Shown here piece by piece: positions 4,017-24,091 of a DNA stretch of 24,243 nucleotides (position 1 is the first letter of the stretch; each line of letters begins with the position of its first letter). Position numbers and translations under genes: made by a program. This stretch comes from a virus. Location of the stretch: IMG/VR virus record IMGVR_UViG_3300010389_000136, positions 1 through 24,243 of that record; one strand, 5' to 3'. The notes beneath the pieces are model-generated. The model was not told the DNA's origin. It searched no databases and saw nothing but the letters and a program-made list of their open reading frames with translations.

Positions 4017-4017
4017 C

Positions 4018-4437: not shown

Positions 4438-4451
4438 CCGGAGACTGAATC

Positions 4452-5432: not shown

Positions 5433-5434
5433 TC

Positions 5435-6246: not shown

Positions 6247-6839
6247 TGGCAGGCTTTCGCCTCACAGTCTCGGACGACCTCGGGCAGGTGCTGGACGGCA
6301 TCGAAGGCGCGATCGGCGCGGTGCGGGACTTCCGCCCGTTGTGGGCGTCGCTCAAGCGCGAGTGGTACACGTCGCGCCGCCGGATGTTCCACACGCAGGG
6401 GCGAAGCAACGGCACGCCGTGGCCGCAGTACGAGGACACCGCCGAGCGCCGCGCGTATCGCTGGATCAAGCCGCGTCTGCTGACCAACCCGCGATTCGCT
6501 GCGGTGCCGCTGCGGTGGCAGCCGGGGCGCGAAGTGCTCTATCCGTCGCTGGTGTCGTCGCGTCACCCGCTGTCCGTGTGGGAGCCGACGCGCCGCACGC
6601 TGACGACCGGGACCGACGTGCCGTATGCGTGGCGCCATGACCGCGGCGCCGGGCGTTCCCCTCTGTGGGCTGGCGCATACGCGATCCCGCGTCGTCCGCT
6701 GCTGTCGCTCGGGCAGCGGTTCACCAACGTCACGCGCCACAAGGTGCAACTCGCAGCAGCAGAGGTCGCGCGGCAACTCGGGACCGGCGCGCGCGTCGGG
6801 CTCACGAGCGCCGCGGTGCGTCGGAGGTTGGGCAGATGA
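6246..6839 (+). CDS. Virion morphogenesis / tail completion protein
   Basis: Start ATG 6246 overlaps the upstream stop, giving 197 residues; an upstream in-frame GTG is less likely. The pattern resembles the phage virion morphogenesis family (Mu gpG / P2 gpS and HK97 gp10-like neck proteins): an N-terminal helical part, then G-x-x-N-G-T-P-W-P-x-Y-x-D-T-A-E-R-R-A-Y, and a C-terminal helical end (L-S-L-G-Q-R-F-T-N-V-T-R-H-K). The family helps join head and tail. Very rich in Arg and Trp. Its stop overlaps the next ATG. Confidence 0.65.
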   Translation: MAGFRLTVSDDLGQVLDGIEGAIGAVRDFRPLWASLKREWYTSRRRMFHTQGRSNGTPWPQYEDTAERRAYRWIKPRLLTNPRFAAVPLRWQPGREVLYPSLVSSRHPLSVWEPTRRTLTTGTDVPYAWRHDRGAGRSPLWAGAYAIPRRPLLSLGQRFTNVTRHKVQLAAAEVARQLGTGARVGLTSAAVRRRLGR

Positions 6840-7381
6840 CCGTTGGCATCGACTGGAATGCGGTAACGCTGCTGCAGCAGGCGGAAGCGGTCCTGACGAC
6901 CGAACTGCCGACCGTTCTGGATGCGCTCGAGACGGCGCACGGCGTGACCGTGCCCGACGTCCGCAGCATCATCCGCAGTGAGGTCCCCGAAGTCGTGCTG
7001 TCGGATACGCCGCTGGTGCAGCTGTACGTCGAATCGACGCAGCGCGACCCGTCGACGGCTGGCCAGGCGGATGCGTTCGGCGCGTGGTACGTCGAACACA
7101 CGATGGTCGCCCGCGTGCTGATGGCTGCTTACTCGGGCGCCGATGACGTCGACGGATACAGCGACGCGCGGCGGATCCTGTGCTGGGGGATCGCCTACGC
7201 GCTGCAACTGTATCTGCCCACCGCGGACTACGGGGCAGCGGTCGGTGTGTATGAATGCCGCCCCGAGACGATCAATACCGAACTCGTGTTCGAGGACGAA
7301 CGATCGGGCCAGTGGTTCCAGGCCGTTCAGATTCGCATGCTCGCAAACCAACGGATGCGGATGGGTCCGCTGCCCGTCTGA
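6836..7381 (+). CDS. Tail terminator / neck protein candidate
   Basis: 181 residues. ATG 6836 overlaps the upstream TGA (ATGA) and has GGAGG 9 bases upstream. It looks like a mixed alpha-beta protein of the usual tail-terminator size, with D-E-R-S-G-Q-W-F-Q-A-V-Q-I-R near the C-terminus. In siphovirus modules this slot, directly before the tail tube gene, is occupied by the ring-forming protein that stops tube growth and binds the head. No family motif can be named, so the role comes from gene order. Confidence 0.5.
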   Translation: MTVGIDWNAVTLLQQAEAVLTTELPTVLDALETAHGVTVPDVRSIIRSEVPEVVLSDTPLVQLYVESTQRDPSTAGQADAFGAWYVEHTMVARVLMAAYSGADDVDGYSDARRILCWGIAYALQLYLPTADYGAAVGVYECRPETINTELVFEDERSGQWFQAVQIRMLANQRMRMGPLPV

Positions 7382-7396
7382 TAGGAGGCACACGCC

Positions 7397-8380
7397 ATGC
7401 CATTGCAGTCACGTCAGACCGTCGTCACGGTCAAGTCACAGGGATCGGCGGGCACCGCCGCGACCATCACGATCGGCACCGACCCGTCGCTGCGGGTGCT
7501 CGGCGTCCCGACGTGGGAGCCGATCGGTGAGCAGCTGATCGAACGCGGCGACATGTCGTCCAGTGCGGGCGGCGTCGTGCGTCCGGTGGTCGGCTCGCAG
7601 GGCTGGCGCGTCCAGTTCCAGACCGAGGACTACGGGTTCACCGACCTGACCGACGAGACGACGAGCCCGCTCGCGCCCCTGTGGGATGCGTCGGGCAAGG
7701 TCGAGGCGCTGACGACCCCGGACCGCGTGCGGTGGACGCCGAGCGCGGGGCAGGTGTTCGGCACGGACCTGACGTATGTGACGATCCAGCTGGACGAGAT
7801 CGGCGGGAACAAGCACGTCCTCTACGACGGCGTTGCGACGGTCACGACCGAGGCGGACGCGGGCGGGCGACTGGTCCACACGTGGACGATCGAGGGCAAG
7901 TGGGAGACGCCGGTCGCCAGCACCGTGACGAACGGCGCCGAGACCTACGGCGCAGAGCCGACGCCCAGCGTGTTCAAGCCCACCGTCTCGTTCACGTCGG
8001 GGATTGCGGGCACGCTGACCGGCCTGTCCGCGTTCTCTGCGGACTACGGCACCGAGCTCGTGACGCGGCAGGTCGCGACCGCGACGGGCGGCATGGACGC
8101 ATCGTTTCTCGCGCGGTCGTCGACGGGTCCGGTGCTGTCCGTGACCATCGACGCCGACGACGAGACCGCGCTGACGGTGTGGGGCGAGGCGCTCGGCACG
8201 TCGACGGAATCGCGGTCTCTGGCGTTCACCGATGGCGAATCGAACACCGTCACGCTCGCGTGGCTGGATTCGTTCGTCCGGTTGCCGCAGCGCGGGGGCG
8301 ACACGTTCCGCACGTATGACATCGAGATCGTCGGCACGACCGAGTCCGTGCCGGATCCTGTCTACATCACGTGGAGCTGA
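7397..8380 (+). CDS. Major tail (tube) protein
   Basis: 327 residues. ATG 7397 has a strong ribosome binding site (AGGAGG 8 bases upstream), as expected for a highly made virion protein. The protein is beta-rich with very few Lys and Cys residues, and shows a tube-like N-terminal half plus an Ig-like C-terminal half (K-P-T-V-S-F-T-S-G near 195 onward). It lies between the terminator candidate and the frameshifted chaperone pair, which is the conserved position of the major tail protein. It would polymerise around the tape measure. Confidence 0.75.
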   Translation: MPLQSRQTVVTVKSQGSAGTAATITIGTDPSLRVLGVPTWEPIGEQLIERGDMSSSAGGVVRPVVGSQGWRVQFQTEDYGFTDLTDETTSPLAPLWDASGKVEALTTPDRVRWTPSAGQVFGTDLTYVTIQLDEIGGNKHVLYDGVATVTTEADAGGRLVHTWTIEGKWETPVASTVTNGAETYGAEPTPSVFKPTVSFTSGIAGTLTGLSAFSADYGTELVTRQVATATGGMDASFLARSSTGPVLSVTIDADDETALTVWGEALGTSTESRSLAFTDGESNTVTLAWLDSFVRLPQRGGDTFRTYDIEIVGTTESVPDPVYITWS

Positions 8381-8384
8381 CCCG

Positions 8385-8675
8385 ATGCCGACCGCCACGT
8401 TCGAGAGCCTGACCGAAGGTGAAGTGACGCTTGATTTCCGTGCGCCGCGCCAGTCCGAGGTGCTGGCGTGCATGGCTGCGAGCGCCGGGGTACAGACCGC
8501 CGCGGATGCGCAGGCGGTTCACCTCGACTTCCTCGCGCCGCTGTGCGACCGGGATCGGTCGTGGCTGGACGACCAGGTGCCGTTCGATGTGCTCGCGCAG
8601 ATCGCCGCGCACCTGCTGGCGTCGCGCCTGCCCGGTGAGGACGTGCTGGGAAAGTCGCGGGTCTCGCTCGCCTGA
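8385..8675 (+). CDS. Tail assembly chaperone (gpG-like)
   Basis: 96 residues from ATG 8385, chosen because it starts four bases after the tube stop; the frame is open further upstream only by chance. The product is small and acidic (T-E-G-E-V-T-L-D-F-R, L-A-P-L-C-D-R-D). It lies between the tube and tape-measure genes, and its 3' end carries GGGAAAG in the G-GGA-AAG phase, the same heptamer as in lambda gene G. In lambda-like phages G coats the tape measure and, with the frameshifted G-T, recruits tube subunits; neither enters the virion. Identity rests on position, size and the frameshift site rather than sequence similarity. Confidence 0.75.
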   Translation: MPTATFESLTEGEVTLDFRAPRQSEVLACMAASAGVQTAADAQAVHLDFLAPLCDRDRSWLDDQVPFDVLAQIAAHLLASRLPGEDVLGKSRVSLA

Positions 8676-9004
8676 CCAACCGCCGAGGATACGTCTGTGC
8701 GGAGTGCGACGACATCACCCGGATCCAGCGCGGCTGCCCGAAGCCGCTGCGCGACCCCTCGCGGTACCGTCGCGACGGGCGCCCGGCGTCGTGCCCGGTG
8801 CTGGACGTGCCGGTGTGGTACTGGGACATGGTAGAAACCGGCGCGCACATCGACCGGGGCAGCGTGTCGCCTGACGCGCTGGACGCCCGTGCGTGGTCGC
8901 TGGCGCGCGTGTGCCACGGTGAGCACCGACGAGCAGCCGACGCCCGGCAGTGGGCAGAGCAGCGCAAGCGCGAGTTGCTGCAGCGCGCGGCGGGGGGTGG
9001 CTGA
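8385..9004 (+). CDS. Tail assembly chaperone G-T frameshift product
   Basis: Reading 90 codons of G to AAG at 8652-8654, slipping back one base and continuing with GTC at 8654 gives a product of about 206 residues ending at TGA 9002-9004. The 116-residue T part starts V-A-G-L-A-R-L-T-N and carries four cysteines at T positions 15, 18, 28 and 47 (C-A-E-C, G-C-P, S-C-P), a likely zinc site, then an aromatic P-V-W-Y-W-D-M-V and a charged helical tail. The first ordinary start codon in this frame is GTG 8798, after all four of those cysteines, so they are reachable only by frameshifting. In lambda, G-T links the tape measure to tube protein. The stop overlaps the tape-measure ATG. Confidence 0.78.
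8648..8654 (+). promoter_or_regulatory. Programmed -1 frameshift slippery heptamer GGGAAAG
   Basis: In the phase of the G frame the heptamer reads G-GGA-AAG, so both tRNAs can slip to GGG-AAA, the classic X-XXY-YYZ form. The -1 frame is opened by a stop at 8636-8638 and runs to 9004, while the G frame stops at 8673-8675; the heptamer is therefore inside the short 37-base overlap where a shift must occur. A GC-rich segment follows, with possible short pairings (CTCG at 8663-8666 or 8667-8670 with CGAG at 8684-8687), but no definite pseudoknot was established by eye. Confidence 0.85.
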
Positions 9005-10623
9005 TGGCGACGACGGTAGGCGCACGGATCAAGTTTGACGCGGACTCAAGCGACGCAGTCCGCGCGATGTCTCGCCTCGAGCGCGCCGCAGATGGCACGC
9101 GCGCGAGCCTGTCCCGGATCGGTGACGTGGCGGGCGGCGCGGCGCTCGGGGTCGCAGGGCTCGGCACGGTAGAGGAGGCGTTGACGCGCGTCGTCGACGG
9201 GCTGACCGAATCGGTGCGGGCGTATGCCGCAGCGGATGCCGACGTCGGCGCGCAGGTCGCGGGCACGGCCGAGCAGTTTCGCGGGCTGCAGGAATCGATC
9301 GGCGCGGCGATCATCGGGGGCGACAACGCGAACCGGATCTTCGGCGCGACGCAGGCGATCGTGGCCGACCTGTCGCGCATCGTTGCAGAGAACGAAACGG
9401 CGATCCGGTCGTTGACGATCAACGCTTTCGCCGGGTTCCTTGACGCAACGGTCGCGGGCGTTCGGTTCGTCAACGGGCTCGTCGATGTGTTTGCGCTCGC
9501 GAAACTCGCCGCAAAGGCGCTATCGCTCGGCGTCGTGGAACTCGGAATCGCGCTCGGCGACGGGCTGCTGCGGACTGTCGAGGCGGTGTCACGCGCAATC
9601 CGTGACATGACGCGCGACCTATCCAGCGCGCTTGAGACCGCATATCAGGTCGCGATCGGGCTCGGTCAACGCGGGCTTGCCGGACAACTTGAGGGCGTGA
9701 TCTCTCGCCTCGATTCGTTCGGCAACGGCGCGGACAACTTCGCGCGGTCAACGGCACAGATGCGTGCGGGGCTTCTCGAGACGCGCGACGCGCTGCGGGA
9801 GGGATTCCAGCGCGACTTCGAAGACACGATGGCGTCGATTGACCGTCGATCGCAGGCGGTCACGGACTTCTCGCAGTCCATCGGCGGTATCGCGGACGCG
9901 ATCCGCGAGGCGTCCACCGTGTTCCCTGTGCTGCGGGGGCAGGTCGAGACGACCGGGGATGCGGTCGAAGCAGAGGCGAGCCGCATCAACGCGAGCATCG
10001 CGGACACGCTGGCGCTTGCCGAGCGCGTGCGGCAGTTCGGCGCCGACGTGTCTGCGGGCGCGCTTGAGACGCTGAAAGAGGGCGACGCCGCAAAGCAGGC
10101 CGAGCGCCGAAAGCTGGCAGACGCCGAGATCGCGGACCAGCAGCGCGTGGCGGCAGCAACGAAAGAGGCGTTCAACGCCCGCGTCGCAGCAGCGCAGGAC
10201 TTCACGAGCGCCGTGACCGCGTCGTTCGCCAGCGTCGTCAGCGGGCAGCAATCGGCGCTGGATGCCATCCGGCAGTTTCTGGGGCAGGAGTTGATCGCGC
10301 GGGGCGGGCGGTACGCGCTCGAGGCTGCCGCGCTGGCGTTTGTGCCGGGGCTGCAGGGTAACGCGGCAGGTCTCGCTGTGGCTGCGGCTGCGATGGTCGC
10401 GGGCGGCGCGGCGCTGTCCGCGTCGGGTGGCGGTGGCGGCGCAGGGGGCGGGGGCGGCGCTGCCGCTTCCGGGCTCGCGTCACCCGCGCCGACGAGCGCG
10501 CCGACGCAGACGATCAACACGACCGTGCAAAGCAACTTCGGGATCGTGGGCGACCCGCGACAGGCTGCCAGGCTGGTCGCGGACAACGTGCGGACCGCAC
10601 AGCGCGAGGGGTACCTGCGGTGA
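9004..10623 (+). CDS. Tail tape measure protein
   Basis: 539 residues from ATG 9004, which overlaps the G-T stop; an in-frame GTG 18 codons upstream is unlikely. Long helical and Ala-rich, with heptad-like stretches (residues 250-400), hydrophobic segments near residues 135-190 and 445-480, a Gly-rich linker at about 478-490 and a T-I-N-T-T-V-Q-S-N-F beta segment before the C-terminal L-V-A-D-N-V-R-T-A-Q-R-E-G. These features and the position right after the G/G-T pair identify the tape measure, which sets tail length and exits with the DNA. By the usual 0.15 nm per residue, a tail near 80 nm is inferred. No peptidase domain is visible. Confidence 0.85.
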   Translation: MATTVGARIKFDADSSDAVRAMSRLERAADGTRASLSRIGDVAGGAALGVAGLGTVEEALTRVVDGLTESVRAYAAADADVGAQVAGTAEQFRGLQESIGAAIIGGDNANRIFGATQAIVADLSRIVAENETAIRSLTINAFAGFLDATVAGVRFVNGLVDVFALAKLAAKALSLGVVELGIALGDGLLRTVEAVSRAIRDMTRDLSSALETAYQVAIGLGQRGLAGQLEGVISRLDSFGNGADNFARSTAQMRAGLLETRDALREGFQRDFEDTMASIDRRSQAVTDFSQSIGGIADAIREASTVFPVLRGQVETTGDAVEAEASRINASIADTLALAERVRQFGADVSAGALETLKEGDAAKQAERRKLADAEIADQQRVAAATKEAFNARVAAAQDFTSAVTASFASVVSGQQSALDAIRQFLGQELIARGGRYALEAAALAFVPGLQGNAAGLAVAAAAMVAGGAALSASGGGGGAGGGGGAAASGLASPAPTSAPTQTINTTVQSNFGIVGDPRQAARLVADNVRTAQREGYLR

Positions 10624-11462
10624 GTTACTACCCTCTGATCTCGTGGGCGATTGACCTTGAGGGCGTCGGCATCGATGTCAACGCGAACAGCGTAGAAGAG
10701 ACGCTGACCTTCCCGGCTGCCGCCGCGACCACGTGGGGCTGGGGCGCGGACTCGGTTGGCGACGCCGCGTCGGACTCGCTGGCGGGCCGTCTCGCGACGC
10801 TGCTCGTCACGCACAGCGAGATCACCGCGGCGTCAGCGACCTACGCGATCGGCAAGCCCGGCACGTACACGATCACCGTGACCGCGAACGGCGGGGTGAA
10901 CATTTCGATCAAGGCAGCCGTCGACACGCTGCGGCGTCTCGGGCTCTACACGTCCGGCACGTCGGGCACGGACACGCTGACGTTTGCGCTCGTGACGGGC
11001 GTCGTTTCGGATTGCCACTTTGACGGCGCGTGGATGCCGGGCGTGCCTGCTGCGGACGCCGAGCCCACGTATGTCGACCCCGGAACGTCGGTCGGAAGCC
11101 CATACGACCCCGGCACGTGGGACCGCCTGTCGTGGACGGCGCGGCGCGTGTGGTCGGTCACGTGGCCCTACGTCGAATCCGCGGACATGTCGCGGGATTA
11201 TGTCGCATACGTTGACGCCGGATTCTCGGCGCTGGCAAACCGCGAGGCGCTGGACACGTACGGCACGTTCGATGACGTGCTGATCCAGACTGCCGCGGGC
11301 GCCGATCTTCGGCTGGTCCTCGCGATGGGCACCGAACGTGACGTACGGTTTGTCGAGGACGGCGACCTTGACCGCAGCCGATACGCCAATCGCGAGACGG
11401 TCGGCGGGCGCAGGTGGAACGTGGTGGCGGCACTGCTCGAGACCAGCGAGGCGACCCCGTGA
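10620..11462 (+). CDS. Distal tail protein candidate
   Basis: 280 residues. GTG 10620 overlaps the tape-measure stop (GTGA). The text is beta-rich with many aromatic residues (W-A-I-D-L-E-G-V, T-T-W-G-W-G-A-D, R-R-V-W-S-V-T-W-P-Y-V-E-S-A-D) and has only one Lys-rich point. The slot after the tape measure normally holds the distal tail (Dit-like) protein or the first tail-tip protein. I do not recognise a family motif. Its stop overlaps the next start, so it is translationally coupled. Confidence 0.55.
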   Translation: MSYYPLISWAIDLEGVGIDVNANSVEETLTFPAAAATTWGWGADSVGDAASDSLAGRLATLLVTHSEITAASATYAIGKPGTYTITVTANGGVNISIKAAVDTLRRLGLYTSGTSGTDTLTFALVTGVVSDCHFDGAWMPGVPAADAEPTYVDPGTSVGSPYDPGTWDRLSWTARRVWSVTWPYVESADMSRDYVAYVDAGFSALANREALDTYGTFDDVLIQTAAGADLRLVLAMGTERDVRFVEDGDLDRSRYANRETVGGRRWNVVAALLETSEATP

Positions 11463-13513
11463 CGGCATACGCCGACGCATACGTGCTGACGGTCGACGGG
11501 TACGGCGACGCATCGGGGCTGTATGGCTTCGCCACGTCGACGCCTGTCTCGACGCCTGCCGGTGTCGGCACGGTGTACGCTGGCACACTGCGGGACGTGC
11601 CCGGCACCATCACGCAGCAGTGGTCGCCCCCGGACGCGGTCGGCAGCGACGCCGGGCTGACGGTGTCGGTCACGCACACGACTGACACCGCGCGGCTCGT
11701 GCGGCGTCTGCTGACGTATTGGGCGGACTCCGCGGGCGTGCCGCTGCGGCTGTCCGAGCCCGTGCAGTCCAGCGACACGACGATCACGCTGACCGGCACG
11801 ATCTCGGGCGCGTCGTCGGGCGATCTGCTGTACGTCGCGGGCGAGGCGTGGTCGTACACGTCGCACTCTGGCGCCGACGTCACGGTCACGCGCGCGCAAC
11901 TCGGGACGACTGCCGCGCCGATCGCGTGGACGGCGCCCGGTCCGGTCGTGCTGTCCGAGCCGCCTGGCGTCGTCGGGCGACGGTGCACGGTGTATCGCGT
12001 CACGTCTGCGGGCGTGTCGACACTCTACCGCGGCACGGTGCAGGGGCTGACCACGTCCGCGGGCGCGATCGGGCTGACCATCGGGTCGGCGTATGGTGAC
12101 GCGCTGCGACGTCCGTACGCGCCGCCCGATGCGACGGGGCTGCGGCTGCCCGTGACGCTGACGCCGGGCACGCTGTCCGCGGATGTCGAGGTCGACACGC
12201 GAGCGTGGGGCGTCGACGACGCGGGCACGCTGTGGACGTGGTGCGACGTGCGTGCGGGCGGCACGGACTACGCGCTGCTGGTCGCGGGCGCGGTGTCGTC
12301 GGGCACGCTGACGATCGGGTCGCCTCCGGTGCGTGCGGCATACGACGGTGACGAGTACGTGGGCGCGCTCGACTTGCCGACCGGTCCTGCCGAGCTCCGC
12401 GCGGTGCGGGTCGCTGACGTGTGGTCTGCGACGTCGCCCGGTGACGTGGTCGCGAGCATCATCGAGGACACGAGCCCGTCGACGATGCGCGGCGCGTGCG
12501 CCGTGACGGTGCAGAACGCGGACGCGGTCACGCTGGCGTCGGGCGTCGCGACGATGCGCAGCCGCACCGAGGCGTCGGATCTGTACTACTTGCCGCACGA
12601 CACGGACGCGCGGACGATCGGGGACGTGGTCGAGGCGCTGCTGCAGCCCGTCGCGCTGTCCATCGTGCCGGATGCACAGGGGCGCCCGCTGGTCATCGAC
12701 TGGCCTGACGTGTCGCGCACCGCGACGACAATCGCGGAATCGCAGGTGCGGCGCGAGGCGGTCACGGGCTGGTCGCAATCGAGCGCGGGCACGCTGCGGT
12801 CCGCACTGGTCGAGGGCGAGCAGGCGACCGATCGCGTCGTGTCGGACGTCGCCGCGCAGATTAACGGGGGTGCCGAGGACGTCGAGATCGACTCGACCCC
12901 GTGGGGCTCGCGGCACGCGGAGTGCGTCGACCGCTGGCGTCAGGCGCTGGCGTCTGCGCAGCTGCCGCGCGTGGCGGTGCAGATGGACGTGGCGCGCGCG
13001 CTGTCGGTCGACGTGGGCGACGTGGTCGCGGTCACGCTGTCGACGGTGTACGACACGGACGGCACGCGCGGCGTGACCGGTGCGCGCGGCCTCGTCGTCG
13101 AACGCGGCGACACGCTGGACGCGCAGGCGCTGACGGTCCACATCGACGCGGGCACGTACCAGCCCGGCGCGTGGGCGCCCACCGCAGAGATCACCGCGTG
13201 GAGCTCGCCCACGGCAACGGTCGACGTCTCGGACTACGACGCGACGGGCGACGCCACGGTGTATGAGGTCGGCGCGGGCGTGACGCTGCGGGACTCTACC
13301 GGCACCGTGCGGGATACCGGCACCGTCTCGGCAGTGACCGCGACGACGGTATCGATCACCGGGCTGACGGTGACGCCAGCGGTGGGCGACCTGCTGACGC
13401 TCGGGACGTGGGACGGCGTCGGGTCGGCGTACCGCGCGGGGTATGCGTGGCTCGCGCGTGACCTCTCTGGTACACTCGGGGCGGGCGGCGACGACCCGTT
13501 CACGTGGGGCTGA
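11459..13513 (+). CDS. Tail tip / baseplate hub-type protein
   Basis: 684 residues. GTG 11459 overlaps the previous stop (GTGA). It is Thr/Asp/Ala-rich and almost free of Lys. Residues about 100-160 form a repeat-like block (S-S-D-T-T-I-T-L-T-G-T-I-S-G-A-S-S-G-D-L) followed by E-A-W-S-Y-T and R-A-Q-L-G-T-T-A-A-P, a style common in tail hub proteins that present polymer- or receptor-contacting loops. A mixed region with R-R-C-T-V-Y-R-V and a duplicated D-V-G-D-V-V-A-V-T-L fold sit further on. The second gene after the tape measure usually encodes the tail hub (Tal-like). No enzymatic motif was found. Confidence 0.6.
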   Translation: MTAYADAYVLTVDGYGDASGLYGFATSTPVSTPAGVGTVYAGTLRDVPGTITQQWSPPDAVGSDAGLTVSVTHTTDTARLVRRLLTYWADSAGVPLRLSEPVQSSDTTITLTGTISGASSGDLLYVAGEAWSYTSHSGADVTVTRAQLGTTAAPIAWTAPGPVVLSEPPGVVGRRCTVYRVTSAGVSTLYRGTVQGLTTSAGAIGLTIGSAYGDALRRPYAPPDATGLRLPVTLTPGTLSADVEVDTRAWGVDDAGTLWTWCDVRAGGTDYALLVAGAVSSGTLTIGSPPVRAAYDGDEYVGALDLPTGPAELRAVRVADVWSATSPGDVVASIIEDTSPSTMRGACAVTVQNADAVTLASGVATMRSRTEASDLYYLPHDTDARTIGDVVEALLQPVALSIVPDAQGRPLVIDWPDVSRTATTIAESQVRREAVTGWSQSSAGTLRSALVEGEQATDRVVSDVAAQINGGAEDVEIDSTPWGSRHAECVDRWRQALASAQLPRVAVQMDVARALSVDVGDVVAVTLSTVYDTDGTRGVTGARGLVVERGDTLDAQALTVHIDAGTYQPGAWAPTAEITAWSSPTATVDVSDYDATGDATVYEVGAGVTLRDSTGTVRDTGTVSAVTATTVSITGLTVTPAVGDLLTLGTWDGVGSAYRAGYAWLARDLSGTLGAGGDDPFTWG

Positions 13514-13516
13514 CCG

Positions 13517-14890
13517 ATGGCGTACACCGAACTGGACGACGACATCTGCACAGACGACGCGAGCGCGGCGAGCCTGATCGGCGTGCGGACGCGGGCGAAT
13601 CTCGCAGGGCTGGCGGACGACCGGACGATCGCGGGGTCGTGGTCGTATGAGTCGCCCGCCGCAGCGAGCACGCACCCGGATGAGTGGTTCGGCGTGCCGT
13701 TCATCGTGCCCGCGGTGCCGGGCGCCGACACGCTGACCGTCACGACCTACATGGACGTGGCGAACGCGGACATGGACTTCTCGCTGCAGGTCGAGGGCAA
13801 CACGGGCGCGACCGTCACCGTGTCCGCGGCGTCGGGCACGTCCGTCACTGTCACGTGCACCGTGCCGCGCACAGCGAGCCCGGACCCCGCGGATGCGTGG
13901 CGGTGCATGCTGCGGATGCGGTCGACCGAGAGCGCGACGACGACTACCGCGCTGAATATCGAGTTTCTCGGGGCGGGCGGTAACGCGATCTTCACGGATC
14001 GCGACGTTTCGACGCCGACCGGTGTAACTCACTATTCGCTGGACCTGTCGGCATACGATGGCGACGGGCTCGATCTGGGCAAATACTACATCGGGCGCAT
14101 TAGCGATGCGGGTCCATCAACGGGCATCGAATACAACCGGCTGATTTGCTGGCCGTCCATCCCGCGGATCGGTGGCCCGATCATCGATGGCGTTGGAAAG
14201 TCGCTGACGCTCACCCTGCTGTCAACGTGCACGCTTCGCGCGGTGTCGTGGGCGGTCGTGGGTGGCGCCGACGCGCCCCCGCCCGTGTCGCTGTATCAGA
14301 CCGGCACGACCGCCTACGCGCGCGGCGTGCGTGGGCTGGCGCGGTACGGTGCCGACGTATACCAGCGCACACCGCACGTGCTGTGTCCGTCGCCTCGCGA
14401 TGCCGCGGGCGGCGTCACGTTCGGTCACGACTTCGGCGTGACGCCGACGTTTGGGTTCTGCCACGCGACACAGCGCGCGGACGTGACCGCGTGGCGCGCA
14501 TGGGTGCTGCTCGGGCGACGGGGCGGCGACCGGACGCTCACGTTCGATTGGACGCTCACGCCGTATGCGCCGACCATCGGGACGCCGCTGACCGAATCCA
14601 GCAGCGCGATTGAGATTGCGACATCTGGCGGGGTCCGGTCAAGCGTGGACGACTCGGGGCTGATGTCTCTGTTCGGCCTGGGCGCGCTGACGTGGGGCGC
14701 GCGGGATCTGTCGTATGCCGGGCGAGACTCGGACCTGTCGCGGTTCCAGTTCGTCGCCATCGAATCGCCCGACCTCGCGACGGTGGGCGTCGACGTGCTG
14801 ATCCAGATCGGCACGACTCGCAGCGGCGCGGCGGGTGACACGTACGTCGCAGCCGTGACCATCGCAGAACGTATCGAGGTGACGCCATGA
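13517..14890 (+). CDS. Minor tail / adhesin-like protein
   Basis: 457 residues, ATG 13517 four bases after the hub stop. Beta-rich with a jelly-roll-like N-terminal half (T-V-T-T-Y-M-D-V-A-N-A-D-M-D-F-S-L-Q-V-E) and a C-terminal half ending in D-V-L-I-Q-I-G-T-T-R. The first half may be a carbohydrate-binding-type sandwich, but I cannot name a family. As the first gene downstream of the hub it is probably part of the tail tip or a receptor-binding component. The stop overlaps the next ATG (ATGA). Confidence 0.5.
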   Translation: MAYTELDDDICTDDASAASLIGVRTRANLAGLADDRTIAGSWSYESPAAASTHPDEWFGVPFIVPAVPGADTLTVTTYMDVANADMDFSLQVEGNTGATVTVSAASGTSVTVTCTVPRTASPDPADAWRCMLRMRSTESATTTTALNIEFLGAGGNAIFTDRDVSTPTGVTHYSLDLSAYDGDGLDLGKYYIGRISDAGPSTGIEYNRLICWPSIPRIGGPIIDGVGKSLTLTLLSTCTLRAVSWAVVGGADAPPPVSLYQTGTTAYARGVRGLARYGADVYQRTPHVLCPSPRDAAGGVTFGHDFGVTPTFGFCHATQRADVTAWRAWVLLGRRGGDRTLTFDWTLTPYAPTIGTPLTESSSAIEIATSGGVRSSVDDSGLMSLFGLGALTWGARDLSYAGRDSDLSRFQFVAIESPDLATVGVDVLIQIGTTRSGAAGDTYVAAVTIAERIEVTP

Positions 14891-15777: not shown

Positions 15778-16610
15778 TGGGCGTCGTCTCTGGCATTCTG
15801 TACGGCAGCACGACGACTGCGCCGAGCGGTGGCGATGCGGGCGATGCCAACGCCTGGGATCTGACGTCCATCGTCGACGTTCCCACGGGCGTCGCGGTCG
15901 GTGACTACGGCGTGTTGGACGGCCGCGTGTATCAGTACACGTCTCTGACGGTGGACGCGGGCGCGGGCGGGGGCTCGCAACTGCTGTGGATCCCGACTGA
16001 CGTCGCCGCGTGGACGTCCCCCACGGTGTCCGCGTTTCTGGTTGGCGACGAAGACGCGACCGCGCGCGGCAATCAGGGATGGACGGACAGCACAAGCGGC
16101 ACCGCGAGCATCACGGGTGATGTCAGCGGCACCGGATGGACGCGGCTGCAGGCCGAGACGAGCAGCGCGGTCGCTGCGATCCAGACGCTTTCTTCTGCTG
16201 TAGCCTCCGGTACCAAGGTCTACGTGCGCACGCTCGCCACGGGGCAGAGCGAGTCGGGCGCGTCGGTTGGGTGGTTCTGCGCGGACGGGAGCAAAGCGAT
16301 GCGACTGTACGACGCCGACGACGGGCTAGCATTCCGTGCCAACTCGGCCACCGTGATAAACCCGTCGACGGTGCGAGATGGCGGGATTAAACTGGCAGAC
16401 GCGCCGAGCGGCGCGCTTTGGGAGACCGTCGACGAGGGGCAGACCGTGTGGGCGCAGGCGTACCGAAACGGCGCGGCGTACCACGGGACGCAGCGGACGA
16501 ACGGAACGAGTTCTTCAAATCGCCTTGAGTTGCGCGCGTTCAGGTTCTCTGGGTCTACCCGGATCCCGACGCTGGACCTCAAAAATCTGATCGTGGTGAC
16601 AGGCACATGA
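15777..16610 (+). CDS. Tail fibre / receptor-binding candidate
   Basis: ATG 15777 overlaps the upstream TGA, giving 277 residues; the frame is open further upstream only by chance. Residues 20-90 have a fibre-tail adaptor flavour (D-A-W-D-L-T-S and G-V-L-D-G-R-V-Y-Q-Y-T-S), the middle is Ser/Thr/Gly-rich, and residues 140-277 form a beta-sandwich-like domain (V-G-W-F-C-A-D-G-S-K-A-M-R-L-Y, L-E-L-R-A-F-R-F-S-G). It is the last gene before the lysis cassette, the usual place of the host-range protein. The 3' half of the gene is less GC-rich than its neighbours (e.g. AAAAATC at 16581), which may signal exchange. The call is positional. Confidence 0.5.
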   Translation: MGVVSGILYGSTTTAPSGGDAGDANAWDLTSIVDVPTGVAVGDYGVLDGRVYQYTSLTVDAGAGGGSQLLWIPTDVAAWTSPTVSAFLVGDEDATARGNQGWTDSTSGTASITGDVSGTGWTRLQAETSSAVAAIQTLSSAVASGTKVYVRTLATGQSESGASVGWFCADGSKAMRLYDADDGLAFRANSATVINPSTVRDGGIKLADAPSGALWETVDEGQTVWAQAYRNGAAYHGTQRTNGTSSSNRLELRAFRFSGSTRIPTLDLKNLIVVTGT

Positions 16611-17164
16611 TCGCCGCAGCCCTCCGCACCATGCAGCGCGTGCCCGGTGTCGTCGCCGTGCTGGTCGCGCGGTCGTTCGCGCTGATGGAAGTGCGCGAGC
16701 ACGGCCACAACCGCGGGCGGTGGGTGTCTGCGATCATCCGGCTCGGCGGTGGCGACGACGACGACGCGCCCGCGTGGTGCGCGTACTTCGGCTGGGCGTG
16801 CTGGCACATCGCCGCGCTTGCGCTCGGGTGCCGCGTCGTGTCGTACACGTCAGGCGGTGTCGCACGGTCGTGGATCAACGCGCACGAGGGCGACCGCGTG
16901 ACCGGCACCCCGCAGCCCGGTGACCTGATGTGCATTGTGCGGGACGCCCGGCACGTCGCCACGGTGCACGCGGGCGGCACGATGCCGGGGCATATGGAGA
17001 TCGTGCGGCGCGTCAACGGTGACGGCACGATCGACACCATCGGCGGCAACACGACCGGCGGTGACAGTGCGGAGGGCGACGGGGTGTACGAACACCGCGG
17101 CGTGTACCGGCTGGACGACCCGCGGCTGATCGGATTCATTCGACCGATGCTTGAGAGGCTGTGA
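16607..17164 (+). CDS. Endolysin, CHAP/NlpC-like peptidoglycan hydrolase
   Basis: 185 residues. ATG 16607 overlaps the upstream stop. The text fits cysteine peptidoglycan hydrolases: A-P-A-W-C-A-Y-F-G-W with Cys58 as the likely nucleophile, S-G-G-V-A-R-S-W, P-Q-P-G-D-L-M at about 102-108, G-H-M-E-I-V with His129, and I-G-G-N-T with Asn148 as the third polar residue. An upstream N-x-G-x-W-V element precedes the Cys, as in 'PWCA' type phage lysins. It would cut peptide cross-links or stems of the cell wall at the end of infection. No signal peptide or cell-wall-binding repeat is visible, so release would depend on the holin downstream. The stop overlaps the next ATG. Confidence 0.78.
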   Translation: MIAAALRTMQRVPGVVAVLVARSFALMEVREHGHNRGRWVSAIIRLGGGDDDDAPAWCAYFGWACWHIAALALGCRVVSYTSGGVARSWINAHEGDRVTGTPQPGDLMCIVRDARHVATVHAGGTMPGHMEIVRRVNGDGTIDTIGGNTTGGDSAEGDGVYEHRGVYRLDDPRLIGFIRPMLERL

Positions 17165-17636: not shown

Positions 17637-17867
17637 ATGTCGATCGAATCGCTCACCGTCCCTGTCGTGCTGGTACTCGGCGCTGTGTCGTCTGCTGGCG
17701 CGATGTCGTGGTGGCTCGGCTCGCAGTTGCGCGCCGTCTCGACGAAGATCGACGACCTGCGGCTGCACATTGTGTCGAGCTACGTGACGCACGAGCGCCA
17801 CAACGAACTTGACCGGCGCGTCGCAGACCTGAACGATCGCGTGGTGCGCATCGAGGCGCGACAGTGA
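17637..17867 (+). CDS. TM plus coiled-coil protein, inner spanin-like candidate
   Basis: 76 residues from ATG 17637. A hydrophobic segment (residues about 6-26) is followed by W-W-L-G-S-Q and a coiled-coil-like charged helix (residues about 30-76, with Leu/Ile/Val in heptad-like spacing: K-I-D-D-L-R-L-H-I-V, R-R-V-A-D-L-N-D-R-V-V-R-I-E). This topology fits an i-spanin partner for the lipoprotein, or a hemolysin XhlA-like membrane protein. Close coupling to the lysis genes supports a lysis role. The stop overlaps the next gene's GTG start. Confidence 0.55.
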   Translation: MSIESLTVPVVLVLGAVSSAGAMSWWLGSQLRAVSTKIDDLRLHIVSSYVTHERHNELDRRVADLNDRVVRIEARQ

Positions 17868-19342
17868 GCGACGACGGACGATGGTGCGCGGCAGGCGAAG
17901 CCGCAGCACACTACCAGATCAGCCCCCGGACGCTGCGCGACCGACGCGCGGCGGGCACCGTGCGGGCTCGCAGACATCCCGAGTATGGGCACCAGTGGGA
18001 GTACTGGTGCCCCGCCGCCTCGGACCCCGGTGATGCGCCGCGCGAAGCAGGCGACACGGGCGAGACCGAGGCGGCGTCACTGCACCTTGCGGCAGACGAG
18101 CAGGTCCGCACCACGGGCGAGGAAGTCCACCGCGACGGCTACGTGTATGTCGGATCGTCCGACACGTACATCATCGGGTGTCCGCCCGCTGGCGGGCAGC
18201 TGGTGCGCCCCGGTGCGTGGGTGCGGTCGCTGTGGCGCGCGTACACCGCGGGCGGAATGACGATCGCGGAGGTCTGCCGCGAGTTCGAGATCGATCGGGC
18301 GACGTTTGAGGCGACGCGCCGATCGCTGGCGCTGACGCATTCGTCGGCACCGTGGACGGATGAGGAGATCGCGGGGTCGACGGTCGACGCTCTGACCGCG
18401 GACGCGCTGCGGAGCAAAGAGCGCGAGGCGCTGGTCAGGGCAGAGCGCGCGGACTGGCGACGCACGCGGCAGGACGCCCAGCGGTGGCGCATGCTGCGCG
18501 AGGCGCTGCGCGAGGCGGTCGAAGAACTCGGCATCCCCGAGCCGAACATCCGCCCGCAGCCCGTCGACCGTGGCGCGTGGGACGTGCTGATCGGGACGAC
18601 CGACATGCACGTCGGCAAGCGCACCGCGGGGCAGGACCACACGCTGGCGGCGCAGGTGGCGGGGCTGCGTGACCTGCTGCACCGCATCCCCGACGACGTC
18701 ATCGGCACGTGGGGCACCGCGCCCGCACGATGGATCGTCGTCATCGGGTCGGACGGTCTGCACTCGGACACCTACGGGCAGACGACGACCAGCGGCACGC
18801 CACAGGGTGCGCAGTCGGTCGGGTCCACGGGACAGGCGCTGGCGGCGTACATCGGGCTGATGGCAGGGCTGATCGATCTGCTGGCCGAAAGCGCGCCCGT
18901 GCTGGCGGTGCACGTGCCTGGCAACCATGACCGCATCCTCGGGCACGCTGCCGCGCTCGCGCTGTCGCAGCGGTACCGCGACGAGGACCGCGTGACCGTC
19001 GATGACGACGAGACCCCGCACCGCGTGCTGGCGGTCGGGTCCGTGCCGCTCATGCTGCACCACGGAGACGGCGCAGACGCGCGAAGGGCTGCCGCCACGC
19101 TGCGACGCGAGGCGCCCGCGTCGTGTGACATCCGGCACGCGATGGTCGCCCACGGTCACCTGCACAGCCGAAGCGCGGCATGGCAGGACGATCACGGCGT
19201 GCTCACCGTGTGCATGGCGTCGCCCGCGAGCGCGGACGACTGGCACGCCGCGAAGCACTACACCGGCGCACGGCGCGCGGTGGGTTGCTGGCGGATTCAC
19301 CACTCGGGGCGGTTGCCGATGCCGATGTGGTGCGAGGTGTGA
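17864..19342 (+). CDS. HTH domains fused to calcineurin-like metallophosphoesterase
   Basis: 492 residues from GTG 17864, which overlaps the upstream TGA. Residues about 8-33 form a MerR/excisionase-like HTH (G-E-A-A-A-H-Y-Q-I-S-P-R-T-L-R-D-R-R) and about 123-152 a second HTH-like block (M-T-I-A-E-V-C-R-E-F-E-I-D-R-A-T). The metallophosphoesterase motifs follow in order: T-D247-M-H249-V-G, G-S-D297-G-L-H300-S-D, P-G-N354-H355-D, H399-H-G-D and H430-G-H432-L-H434. The set is complete, so the enzyme should be active on phosphoesters. With DNA-binding domains in front, DNA (nuclease or end-processing, SbcD-like in fold) is the likely substrate, but this is not shown. It lies at the end of the + strand arm, one base from the convergent helicase-methyltransferase gene. 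Confidence 0.82.
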   Translation: MSDDGRWCAAGEAAAHYQISPRTLRDRRAAGTVRARRHPEYGHQWEYWCPAASDPGDAPREAGDTGETEAASLHLAADEQVRTTGEEVHRDGYVYVGSSDTYIIGCPPAGGQLVRPGAWVRSLWRAYTAGGMTIAEVCREFEIDRATFEATRRSLALTHSSAPWTDEEIAGSTVDALTADALRSKEREALVRAERADWRRTRQDAQRWRMLREALREAVEELGIPEPNIRPQPVDRGAWDVLIGTTDMHVGKRTAGQDHTLAAQVAGLRDLLHRIPDDVIGTWGTAPARWIVVIGSDGLHSDTYGQTTTSGTPQGAQSVGSTGQALAAYIGLMAGLIDLLAESAPVLAVHVPGNHDRILGHAAALALSQRYRDEDRVTVDDDETPHRVLAVGSVPLMLHHGDGADARRAAATLRREAPASCDIRHAMVAHGHLHSRSAAWQDDHGVLTVCMASPASADDWHAAKHYTGARRAVGCWRIHHSGRLPMPMWCEV

Positions 19343-19343
19343 A

Positions 19344-21614
19344 TCAGACGAGGTCGAGGAGCGACGTCTGCGCGTCGGGCTTGACCGCCTCGTCCATGTT
19401 TCGACACGCGAGTTCGAAGTAACTTGCCTTGAGTTCGCAGCCCCACGCGCGTCGACCCATGTTGACCGCCGACACCGCCTCGCTGCCGATGCCCATGAAC
19501 GGCGTCAGCACGAGGTCTCCGGGGTTACTCCACAGGTGGATCGCACGCTCGATGACGTCGAGTTGGAGCGGGCAGATGTGGCGCTCGTCGTCCTCGTCTC
19601 GCCCGTCGCGGTAGTTCAGCGTGCGGGTCTGATTGATGTCGAACCAGACCGGGCTGGCGTACCGCTGCCACACGTCGATGCTGTATCGGCGCGCGTCGTC
19701 ATCGGGCGAGCCGTCCGGGCCGCTTTCTCCGATGTACGAGTCGAACCGCTCGCCGCCGCTCGATACGGGCTCGGGGTTCTCGCCGGGCTTCTGGAACACG
19801 CACAGGTAGTCAGCGAGTCCCTGACGTGACCGCGCCGAATCCTTGCACAGCGTCTTGTAGAGCAGGCCGTGCGCCTTCGTCCGCTGCATCGCGGTCACGG
19901 GATCCTTCCAGATGCAGACCTCGGAGTGCAGGACGAATCCCTTCGACTCGAACAGCCGGATGATGTCGCCGCGGAAGTCCTTCACCCCGACGTACCCGTC
20001 GCGGGACTTGGACGCCATCAGCTGCATGACGTGCACCGCGCAGATTCGGCCCGGCATCAGCACGCGGAACAGTTCATCGACGATGAATCCGAAGTGCACC
20101 GCGAAGTCGTCCGCGTTCTCGCAGTTGCCGAGATCGCGCGGGCTGTTCGAGTACGTGAACAGGGACGCGAACGGCGGGCTGAACACCATCATGCCGACGC
20201 TGTCGTCTTCGACGTCGCGCAGCTTCTCGACGCTGTCGCCCTTGTGGAGCTCGAACCCTTCACCTCGATACACGTCGACGTCGTACTCGTCGCGCATGGC
20301 GGTCAGACTCGACACGTTCTCGATGCTCGTCTCTCGCATTGCCTTCGTCATCTCCTCCCCCATTTCATCCGCTGCTGCCTGCTTTCTCGAGATCGATCGG
20401 GCGACTGCCGACTCGGTGTCAGCGAACGCGACGTGCACGCTCACCGGCGACTTCTGGCCGAATCGCCAGCACCGACGCACGGCCTGGTAGAACTGCTCAT
20501 AGCTGTGCGTCAGCCCGACGAATGCGACGTTTCGGCAGTGCTGCCAGTTCATGCCGAATCCGGCGATGCTCGGCTTGGTGACGATGACCCGATGGTCTCC
20601 GTGAGAAAACCCGAGCATCCGGGCCGCCTTCTGCTCCGGCTTGTCGCTGCCGCGCACAGTGACCGCGTCGGGAATCAGTCGCGACAGTTCATCCTCCTCC
20701 GCGTTGGTGTGGCACCACACGACCCACGGCTCGTCGCTGTCGTTGACGAGTTCCGCGATCGTGGACGCGCGCATCGGCATCGTGCGCTTGGACTCGGCGC
20801 GCAACTCGGACAGGGTGCGCGCCTCCATCCGAAACAGCGTGCCGCCATCTGCGGTGCGGTCCGCCTCGATCATGTGCTCGACGATGTCCATCGGCGGCAG
20901 CATGAATCCGTCGTCGCTGAATCCGATATCGGACGGGCGGCGGATACAGATCGCCCACGTCGCGACCCATCGCCAGAACGCTTCGCGGGCGTGACCCTTG
21001 AGTCGCCAGTCCGACACGTTGCCGCCCGTGTCATGGATGAAGAACGACGCCAGCATCTCCTCGCGAGACATGATCCCGCAGAACTGTGCGTGATTGCCGA
21101 GCTCGGTGTGGTCGTTGGGCGCGGGCGTCGCCGTGCATGCCAGGCGGTACGGCACCCGCTCCGACATCATCAGCAGCTCTGTGCGCGTCTTGCCGTTGAA
21201 CGACTTCAGGATGCTCGACTCGTCCAGCACGATCCCTGCGAACTCGTCGACGTTGAACTTGTCGCGCTGCTCGTAGTTGGTGATCACGATACCGCTTCGG
21301 ATGACTCCGTCGCGCGAGACCGCCGCGTCGATGCCGAACCGCGACGCCTCCTCCGACGTCTGCTCCGCCACGGCGAGCGGGCACAGGATCAGCACCGGCA
21401 TCCCGGTGTGCTCGTGCACGCGGTGAGCCCACTCGAGTTGCATCAGCGTCTTGCCCATTCCGCAGTCAGCGAAGATCGCGGCACGTCCGCGACGGAGCGC
21501 CCACCGAACGATGGCGGATTGGTAGTCGAACAGGTGCGAGTTCAGATCGCCGCAGTCGAATCCCGACGCGGGCGCCTCGCGCATCTTCGTCTCGATGTAC
21601 TTTGCGTAGTTCAT
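19344..21614 (-). CDS. SNF2-like helicase fused to SPPF-type DNA methyltransferase
   Basis: 756 residues. N-terminal half: F-D-Y-Q near 29-32 (Q-motif-like), Walker A D50-C-G-M-G-K55-T, D131-E-S-S as motif II, T161-A-T-P as motif III and a C-terminal helicase core with S-I-A-G-F-G-M-N-W and Q-A-V-R-R-C-W-R-F-G-Q (about 378-388) as motif VI, i.e. an SF2/SNF2-type DNA translocase. C-terminal half (about 445-756): S479-P-P-F as catalytic motif IV and P-F-M-G708-I-G710-S as the SAM-binding motif I, in the permuted beta-class order; SPPY/F usually marks N4-cytosine enzymes. ATG 21614 overlaps the MazG stop. The likely job is self-modification of phage DNA or restriction evasion, possibly coupled to translocation. 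No cognate endonuclease lies in the window. Confidence 0.85.
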   Translation of the reverse strand: MNYAKYIETKMREAPASGFDCGDLNSHLFDYQSAIVRWALRRGRAAIFADCGMGKTLMQLEWAHRVHEHTGMPVLILCPLAVAEQTSEEASRFGIDAAVSRDGVIRSGIVITNYEQRDKFNVDEFAGIVLDESSILKSFNGKTRTELLMMSERVPYRLACTATPAPNDHTELGNHAQFCGIMSREEMLASFFIHDTGGNVSDWRLKGHAREAFWRWVATWAICIRRPSDIGFSDDGFMLPPMDIVEHMIEADRTADGGTLFRMEARTLSELRAESKRTMPMRASTIAELVNDSDEPWVVWCHTNAEEDELSRLIPDAVTVRGSDKPEQKAARMLGFSHGDHRVIVTKPSIAGFGMNWQHCRNVAFVGLTHSYEQFYQAVRRCWRFGQKSPVSVHVAFADTESAVARSISRKQAAADEMGEEMTKAMRETSIENVSSLTAMRDEYDVDVYRGEGFELHKGDSVEKLRDVEDDSVGMMVFSPPFASLFTYSNSPRDLGNCENADDFAVHFGFIVDELFRVLMPGRICAVHVMQLMASKSRDGYVGVKDFRGDIIRLFESKGFVLHSEVCIWKDPVTAMQRTKAHGLLYKTLCKDSARSRQGLADYLCVFQKPGENPEPVSSGGERFDSYIGESGPDGSPDDDARRYSIDVWQRYASPVWFDINQTRTLNYRDGRDEDDERHICPLQLDVIERAIHLWSNPGDLVLTPFMGIGSEAVSAVNMGRRAWGCELKASYFELACRNMDEAVKPDAQTSLLDLV

Positions 21615-22252
21615 GACCCTCCACGGTCGTCACGCCTCTCCATTGAGGCTGTTGTGGTGAACCCATCTGGGTATCTCTTTGCCAGTTTGTCAACGTTCAT
21701 CTTCGCCACGTCATCAAGCGACACGCCGATGCACGCTGCGATGTCAGCGACGTACCACAGCACGTCTCCCAGTTCGCTGGCGATCCGGTCCCGATCGAGC
21801 GGGTGCCCGTGCCCAGCGAACTTCTTGATGTGCTCGACGACCTCGCCAGATTCGCCAGCCAGCCCGAGCGCAGAGATCGTCAGCCTGTGCACGGCTGGCG
21901 TGTACGGGCTCGTCGTTCGCTGCGCCATGCGCTGGTAGTCGTGCAGTGTCCAGTGTGATTCACCTCCCATCGCCACCCCCTCGCTGATCATCCTGTGTGC
22001 CGTCGCCCCGTCCAGTTCGGCATCGGTCACCGGACCGAGCCGCGCGTCGAGATCGTCCAGCCACGCGAGCGTGTCACGGCGCGTCCCGTCGCGCGTGAAC
22101 GCCAGCAGCCCCGTGGGGGCGTGCGTGACCGCCCAGGACGACGGGTGCGCGCGTCGGACGTGCCAGCGTCCCGAGGGCGAGACGACGCCGTTGACCTCGA
22201 TCGGCTCGCGGTGCCTTTGGTTGATCTTGACCTTTCTGCGTGTCCATGTCAT
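21611..22252 (-). CDS. MazG-like nucleotide pyrophosphohydrolase with N-terminal extension
   Basis: 213 residues. ATG 22252 is chosen because GGAGGG lies 7-8 bases upstream and the codon overlaps the upstream stop. Residues about 103-197 are MazG-like: L-H-D-Y-Q at 103, G-L-A-G-E-S-G-E137-V-V-E140, then E160-L-G-D163-V-L-W-Y and the end K-L-A-K-R-Y-P-D-G-F, giving the metal-binding E-x-x-E and E-x-x-D pair. The family hydrolyses NTPs or dNTPs to monophosphates; phage versions are linked to nucleotide pools or the (p)ppGpp response. The first 100 residues are a separate Trp-rich segment with no recognised match (R-W-H-V-R-R-A-H-P-S-S-W-A-V-T-H). Its stop overlaps the helicase start, so expression is coupled. 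Confidence 0.82.
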   Translation of the reverse strand: MTWTRRKVKINQRHREPIEVNGVVSPSGRWHVRRAHPSSWAVTHAPTGLLAFTRDGTRRDTLAWLDDLDARLGPVTDAELDGATAHRMISEGVAMGGESHWTLHDYQRMAQRTTSPYTPAVHRLTISALGLAGESGEVVEHIKKFAGHGHPLDRDRIASELGDVLWYVADIAACIGVSLDDVAKMNVDKLAKRYPDGFTTTASMERRDDRGGS

Positions 22253-22659
22253 GCCGACGCCCTCCCGATCACGTCGCGCCACCCGAGCACGAGCACGAGC
22301 GCGCCAACGTCGACCATCGTTGCGGGTGCGCCAGCTGCGAGGCGGCGCAATCGTCGCTCGCTCATGCACGCCAGCACGGTCGCGAATCCCTCGCTGTCAC
22401 GGTCCATCGCGTACACGTCCCACGCGGCGTCACGGACGGACTCTGCGAGGTGCGGGCGCGGCGTGCCGTATGCGTCGAGACAGCGCGCGACGGACGGCAC
22501 GGTGCCGAGCCCGCGCTCGATCAGGCTGACGGTGTGACCGGACATCCCGGCGCGGTCGCCTGCCTCGTCGAGTGTCAGCGCGTGCCGGAACCGGTCGCGC
22601 GTGAGGTCGCTGCCCCACTGCCGCGCGTTCTCGTGTGCGATGTGCCTGGGGGTTTTCAT
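22249..22659 (-). CDS. XRE-type HTH transcriptional regulator
   Basis: 136 residues. ATG 22659 is chosen for GGGAGGA about 9 bases upstream and the ATGA overlap with the previous gene; a longer frame upstream is chance. Residues about 22-66 form a Cro/C1-type HTH: L-T-L-D-E-A-G-D-R-A-G-M-S-G-H-T-V-S-L-I-E-R-G, followed by V-P-S-V-A-R-C-L-D-A-Y-G. A helical C-terminal half may dimerise. It is the only classical DNA-binding regulator in the window, so it is a candidate for the palindromes at 303 and 15415, but a direct link is not visible in the sequence. Confidence 0.72.
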   Translation of the reverse strand: MKTPRHIAHENARQWGSDLTRDRFRHALTLDEAGDRAGMSGHTVSLIERGLGTVPSVARCLDAYGTPRPHLAESVRDAAWDVYAMDRDSEGFATVLACMSERRLRRLAAGAPATMVDVGALVLVLGWRDVIGRASA

Positions 22660-22910
22660 GGCCGCTCGTCCTCCCACTGCGGATCGTCCGAAATCATCCG
22701 CTCCGTTCTGGCGTGCACCGCCCAGCATGCTTCGCGCTTCGTCTCGTGCGTCGTCCGGTAGATGCGCGCGTCGAGTCCGTACCAGACCTCCCACGCTTCG
22801 CCGGACCATGACACGAGCCAGCACCCTCGCGCGTGTCGTCCGCTGATCCAGTGGCCTCGGTGCGCGTCGTATCCGCGCATTCCGAGACGCTGCAGGGTGT
22901 GATCGTTCAT
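22656..22910 (-). CDS. Hypothetical Trp-rich early protein
   Basis: 84 residues. ATG 22910 follows GGAGAG at 6 bases. The text is rich in Trp, His and Arg (W-I-S-G-R-H-A-R-G-C-W-L-V-S-W-S-G-E-A-W-E-V-W-Y-G-L-D-A-R) with an acidic C-terminus; there is no recognisable motif. The gene begins after the hairpin at 22931-22973 and shares the short leader seen before two other early genes. It ends in an ATGA overlap with the regulator gene, so it is the first gene of the regulator-MazG-helicase transcript or a coupled member of it. Confidence 0.6.
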   Translation of the reverse strand: MNDHTLQRLGMRGYDAHRGHWISGRHARGCWLVSWSGEAWEVWYGLDARIYRTTHETKREACWAVHARTERMISDDPQWEDERP

Positions 22911-23716: not shown

Positions 23717-24091
23717 TCAGAACGGGATCTCATCGTCCCCGAACGACCCGCCGCCCTGCTTCGGTGCGGCGCGCTTCGCGGGGGCGGGGGCGGTGGCGGA
23801 GTCGTCGCGGCGCCCACCCTGCAGCGCGATGTCGTGCACGCGCAGCTGGTGGTACACCTTGCCGTTGTGCTCGCGCAGGGTCATCTCGCCCGAGACCGTG
23901 ACCTTGCTGCCCTTCGTCAGGTGCGGCGCCAGCGCCTCGCCGCGCCGTCCCCACACTGCGCAGTCGAACCAGATGGTCGTCTTCTCGCGCCCGGACTCCG
24001 CCGCGACTGCGACGTTCAGCACCTGTCCGTCGCCAACGTTGCGAAGTTCTGCGTCGCGCCCGACATTGCCAGTGATGATGGTCGTGATCAT
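23717..24091 (-). CDS. ssb: Single-stranded DNA-binding protein
   Basis: 124 residues from ATG 24091, with GGAGAGAGAC just upstream. The first 100 residues are an OB-fold of the bacterial SSB type (T-G-N-V-G-R-D-A-E-L-R near 8-18, W-F-D-C-A-V-W-G near 41-48, L-T-K-G-S-K-V-T-V-S-G-E near 58-69). A short Ala/Pro/Lys/Gly linker leads to the conserved acidic tip D-D-E-I-P-F at the C-terminus, which recruits replication and repair partners. It coats single-stranded DNA during phage replication or recombination. The length is shorter than a host SSB, as is usual in phages. Confidence 0.95.
   Translation of the reverse strand: MITTIITGNVGRDAELRNVGDGQVLNVAVAAESGREKTTIWFDCAVWGRRGEALAPHLTKGSKVTVSGEMTLREHNGKVYHQLRVHDIALQGGRRDDSATAPAPAKRAAPKQGGGSFGDDEIPF

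Follow-up and report, generated by a model that had tools for sequence, protein, structure and literature searches.

The window analysed here is a whole IMG/VR virus record (24,243 bases, G+C 69%), possibly a genome fragment, and a megablast search with its full length did not find near-identical phage DNA. Its plus strand carries late-type genes, including those for a neck protein (6228-6839, from a PHROG scan), a CHAP endolysin (16607-17164, from a profile match) and, as the last of them, an SbcD-like exonuclease with an N-terminal HTH-like stretch (17864-19342; PHROG 704, 2.4e-30). The large late genes that were scanned at positions 349-14890 of the same strand gave almost no Pfam match and two PHROG matches only, so the phage lineage is a poorly sampled one. 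Reading leftward from the right end, the minus strand encodes a single-strand DNA-binding protein (SSB; 23717-24091; Pfam SSB, 2.8e-13; PHROG 44), several small ORFs, an 84-aa product (22656-22910, from the ORF list), an HTH regulator (22249-22659; Pfam HTH_31, 5.4e-7, with the ATG at 22659 taken as its start), a MazG-type pyrophosphohydrolase (21611-22252; Pfam MazG, 9.9e-13) and, finally, a fusion of an SNF2-type translocase with a beta-class DNA methyltransferase, identified from its ORF, profiles, AlphaFold model and Foldseek matches.

The fusion gene begins with an ATG at 21614, downstream of a Shine-Dalgarno-like GGAGGG, and its stop codon ends at 19344, giving a protein of 756 aa. The first-pass annotation had the coordinates 19344-21614 right and gave no strand; it is the minus strand that carries the ORF. 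Together with the three genes before it, it forms a string of same-strand overlapping frames (22910-22656, 22659-22249, 22252-21611 and 21614-19344), of which the 84-aa ORF is the first, and its start shares four bases, ATGA (21611-21614), with the MazG stop. This arrangement fits the proposed co-transcription of the fusion gene with MazG and the regulator, and the SSB gene can be taken as the marker of an early or replication module. At its other end the fusion ORF meets the convergent exonuclease gene head-on, which stops at 19342; a homologue of that exonuclease lies nearby in one of 103 relatives. E-values and conservation rule out a chance ORF, and the intact catalytic residues of the window protein and its relatives rule out a degenerate remnant.

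The first half of the protein (residues 24-430; 20325-21545) is an SNF2/SF2 ATPase by Pfam, Foldseek and motifs. It contains motif I (D50-C-G-M-G-K-T56), motif II (D131-E-S-S134), motif III (T161-A-T-P164, within TATPAPND) and motif VI (QAVRRCWRFGQ, with R380-R-C-W-R-F-G-Q387). All of the motifs quoted for the two halves in the first-pass annotation are found at the residues given there, in the minus-strand translation. The Pfam models SNF2-rel and Helicase_C cover residues 31-173 (3.4e-7) and 291-386 (2.8e-6), respectively, and PF00176, which is above cut-off in the window protein, is also matched by 45 of 55 relatives. The top Foldseek matches of this half are the solved SNF2 motors CSB, Mot1 and ISW1. 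With its SF2 core, DExx box, QxxRxxRxGQ signature and SNF2 fold, the half can be assigned by homology to the SNF2/SWI2 group, and it may translocate on duplex DNA at the expense of ATP. Certain relatives bind DNA without processive movement. Duplex DNA is the substrate of SNF2 ATPases (PMC5512222).

A variable linker (residues 431-453; 20256-20324) leads to the methyltransferase half (residues 454-740; 19395-20255), to which Pfam N6_N4_Mtase aligns over residues 475-736 (2.7e-15). Here motif IV (S479-P-P-F482) precedes the SAM motif I (PFMGIGS, 705-711, including F706-M-G-I-G-S711), the order and SPP(Y/F) type of the beta class. The domain reading put forward earlier, an SNF2-like motor followed by a beta-class SPPF methyltransferase, is thus borne out by both profiles and fold. 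Foldseek matched this half to the methyltransferase TTHA0409 (2zie; TM 0.83 by target, 23% identity) and, among viral models, to proteins annotated as N4-cytosine methyltransferases; M.PvuII was matched too, as 1boo. In beta-class enzymes SPP(Y/F) goes with N4-cytosine, and M.PvuII makes m4C. The product is therefore probably N4-methylcytosine, SPPF pointing to m4C without fixing the target base for certain. The AlphaFold model, built from 55 relatives, has a mean pLDDT of 81.7 and a pTM of 0.72, and the mutual placement of the two halves in it is not to be relied on.

Within the methyltransferase, residues 610-648 (19671-19787) form the sole short variable stretch and are, from the alignment, the candidate site for a target-recognition insert. 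This spacer is about 20-45 aa long in the main subfamily and about 100 aa in a distant subfamily with SIPF as motif IV. Because the alignment of relatives shows no long hypervariable region for target recognition, the enzyme may have a single specificity that is conserved or relaxed. Neither Pfam nor PADLOC nor Foldseek revealed a nuclease domain in the fusion protein. The earlier statement that the window lacks a nuclease partner holds for the operon; the SbcD-like exonuclease is encoded convergently on the opposite strand.

The window protein belongs to a widespread phage family that is already known. The PHROG 16 profile spans residues 27-755 (1e-77) and PHROG 67 matches as well (2e-41); the profile alignment is full-length, and both the ATPase and the methyltransferase motifs are intact. 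Relatives were found by tblastn in 360 phage records, 305 of them with at least 80% query cover and none with more than 60% identity, and also in at least 599 IMG/VR stretches and 124 GTDB species genomes, spread over many bacterial phyla and some archaea. Among the matches listed the best identity is 56-57%; the best named match is gp40 of Synechococcus phage S-CBS3 (52%), and other named examples are gp69 of Arthrobacter phage Hestia and gp64 of Mycobacterium phage Girr. Since the fusion occurs in hundreds of phage records and is already annotated as 'DNA helicase/methylase', the rarity implied at first did not survive the searches. The window protein is a real, intact and ordinary member of this family, if a diverged one.

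The two halves are not always a single protein. In 174 loci, retrieved by exact peptide words from the query and hence biased towards conserved members, they are fused in 112, encoded by adjacent genes in 59 and interrupted in 3, where a contig ends or the frame breaks. Split loci break at the linker, and the adjacent genes often overlap by 4 bp; a large gap or overlap was measured in some of the split loci. In a FastTree tree built from 102 loci, fusion or fission occurs about 11 times, compared with 28.5 when the labels are shuffled, and therefore the link between helicase and methyltransferase outlives the gene structure. Distances in the two halves correlate (r=0.81, permuted maximum 0.28), a value that shared descent alone raises and that was set against no control gene pair. 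At 10848-11489 of Flavobacterium phage hattifnatt9-1 (L090), the split pair is set apart by a small ORF and a gene annotated as an endonuclease, as though a homing endonuclease had inserted itself there.

Catalytic residues are nearly constant. Across 102 dereplicated loci, S479, P481 and F482 of motif IV are kept in all (98 SPPF, 4 SIPF), and K55, D131, E132, R381 and R384 of the ATPase are kept in all save one truncated locus. The first-pass annotation had named catalytic mutations in relatives as evidence that would speak against its reading; apart from P480I in the distant subfamily and the one truncated locus, none was seen. This constancy argues for selection on both activities. Pairwise identity averages 0.53 in the motor, 0.61 in the methyltransferase, 0.20 in the linker and 0.39 in residues 610-648. 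The SIPF subfamily, which has lost the first proline of motif IV and kept the second, consists of four loci from Mycobacterium, Pseudomonas, Arthrobacter and Pseudanabaena phages (L086, L087, L088 and L089). A Dethiobacter alkaliphilus MAG (L121) carries a 316-residue intein (Pfam Intein_splicing, 6.8e-11) in the motor DExx box, at DE|SG after the equivalent of E132; it starts with C and ends with HN before S.

The neighbours of the pair are replication and recombination genes and not defence nucleases. Among 104 dereplicated loci, with some labels read from a representative sequence or from annotated members of a cluster, they encode SSB (21), an m5C methyltransferase (21), a beta-clamp-like protein (11), HNH proteins (10), a second SF2 helicase (8), a DnaB-like protein (7) and a nucleoside deoxyribosyltransferase-like protein (7), and RusA also recurs; apart from the scattered HNH genes there is no conserved nuclease neighbour. 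In its 21 loci the C5-type cytosine methyltransferase is encoded no more than 9 kb away, often near the pair, which it adjoins in the P52 phage (L087) and in Pan5 (L089). MazG homologues stand directly beside the pair in some loci (e.g., L080, L024 and L025) and occur in 5 of the 173 other loci, or 3 of 103 after dereplication, so the link with MazG drawn in the first-pass annotation is not a family trait, and MazG was rejected as a functional partner. It had also been suggested that the fusion be sought in defence islands. Instead, the 102 flanking ORFs of 15 sampled chromosomal relatives included members of the terminase, portal, primase and DnaB families, together with RecE and exonuclease genes, and these chromosomal copies lie in prophages. 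Most PADLOC hits in the flanks were to methyltransferases and SNF2 helicases, two groups that cross-match; PDC-S05 and ShosA gave isolated hits.

On the strength of the domains, the intact catalytic motifs, the recurrent fusion or pairing, the location in replication modules and prophages and the lack of a nuclease, we consider it somewhat probable that the protein is an early phage methyltransferase that translocates on dsDNA, probably makes m4C and marks phage DNA against restriction. The SNF2-type ATPase would move along double-stranded DNA without unwinding it, probably transporting the methyltransferase over phage DNA that has just been made or is incoming, and removing bound proteins; many sites would then be methylated in cis, and DNA so modified would escape cutting by host restriction enzymes. 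Self-protection is, we infer, the best available explanation of the fusion. One point against it is the conserved methyltransferase surface, lacking a long variable recognition domain, which is at odds with an enzyme tailored to the restriction system of each host.

The foremost alternative is an accessory of replication or recombination. Its motor would remodel forks or displace proteins, and the methyl marks on new phage DNA would serve repair, packaging or timing and not defence against restriction. Conservation of the recognition region across hosts would suit such a phage-internal mark. The neighbours already described (SSB, the beta-clamp-like protein, DnaB and RusA, with primase, RecE and exonucleases at prophage copies) fit such a role, as does the behaviour of the distant homologue Girr gp64, which is mildly toxic when over-expressed and was grouped with replication genes (PMC11075535). 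However, separate replicative helicases exist, both in S-CBS3, which encodes its own RepA and for which the SNF2 half is thus not the sole helicase, and in the sampled prophage modules, which also have primases; the fusion is therefore not the replicative helicase. Moreover, some F1 phages are stated to lack a DNA methylase gene (PMC10453261), and phages of the Girr cluster without it do grow, which would count against this role if that gene, possibly a different one, is the gene of the pair. Location is indecisive, as early regions carry anti-host and replication genes alike, and we regard the accessory role as unlikely, if worth keeping in view.

We consider it a long shot that the whole family, whether its phages infect bacteria or archaea, is a methyltransferase driven by a motor and directed at a single conserved, relaxed target (perhaps m4C at sites that occur very often), and that it coats phage DNA by translocation and not by a host-specific motif. 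If true, coating of this kind would give general protection from many restriction systems. A further, improbable alternative is a promiscuous methyltransferase acting on single strands or coupled to replication, in the manner of M.EcoGIX and M.BceJIII from plasmids, to which the ATPase gives access. SSB is a frequent neighbour, the recognition region is short, and promiscuous replication-associated enzymes that block restriction provide a precedent (PMC7736820), but M.EcoGIX and M.BceJIII make m6A, and the duplex preference of SNF2 ATPases favours a dsDNA substrate (PMC5512222). A superinfection-exclusion or restriction-like system directed against other DNA, with the nuclease encoded elsewhere, has a layout resembling the type I and III motors plus methyltransferase and weak profile matches to ResIII and DpdE in its favour, but it is highly improbable given the lack of a nuclease in the protein or, scattered HNH genes aside, conserved beside it, the prophage rather than defence-island location of chromosomal copies and a similarity to P1 type III Res at noise level.

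It is the family that carries the weight, the window itself adding one diverged member. In hundreds of phages a motor driven by ATP stays linked to a DNA methyltransferase, in fused or overlapping genes and with both active sites intact, and several members occur in phages with established laboratory hosts, which makes the function directly testable.

Among known systems, the closest likeness is to S-CBS3 gp40, Hestia gp69 and Girr gp64, which share domain order, motifs and a full-length alignment with the window protein (52% identity for S-CBS3 and 32% for Girr), although the MazG-HTH gene string of the window is not common to its PHROG 16/67 relatives. For this family no paper was found that reports a substrate, a target motif or the phenotype of a knock-out; phrase searches for helicase-methyltransferase fusions returned a 2017 paper on polyvalent proteins as the sole relevant one, and a marine methylome paper does not mention SNF2 proteins or helicases. 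TTHA0409, itself an uncharacterised protein, shares the methyltransferase fold and motif order but is free-standing, without a motor, and has SPPY instead of SPPF. Type III (Mod/Res) and type I restriction motors likewise pair an SF2 motor with an amino-methyltransferase, whereas the window protein has no nuclease, its motor is SNF2-like with an RxGQ motif VI, and no nuclease-bearing Res stands beside a Mod; homology to P1 type III Res was rejected.

The phage-borne DarB of P1, one of the polyvalent proteins (Iyer 2017), also joins a DNA methyltransferase to an SNF2-clade ATPase. DarB is a virion-borne protein of the gamma class (NPPY/F) with the methyltransferase first (PMC5512222), and it is 2255 aa long, whereas the window protein has the opposite domain order and a beta-class SPPF motif, and its gene sits in an early-type module with SSB, away from structural genes. 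Homology was rejected, as the similarity (E 0.010) covers 73 aa around Walker A only and profile comparison was negative. With its methylase and SNF2 ATPase, DarB shields the DNA of the phage in cis against type I restriction (PMC5512222), which makes this protein a precedent for the proposed mechanism while being no homologue. According to the same 2017 paper, coupling of SNF2 ATPases to methylases is widespread in phages beyond the polyvalent proteins, and the methylases are described as adenine methylases (PMC5512222); in contrast to that label, the beta-class SPPF type of the window family points to cytosine.
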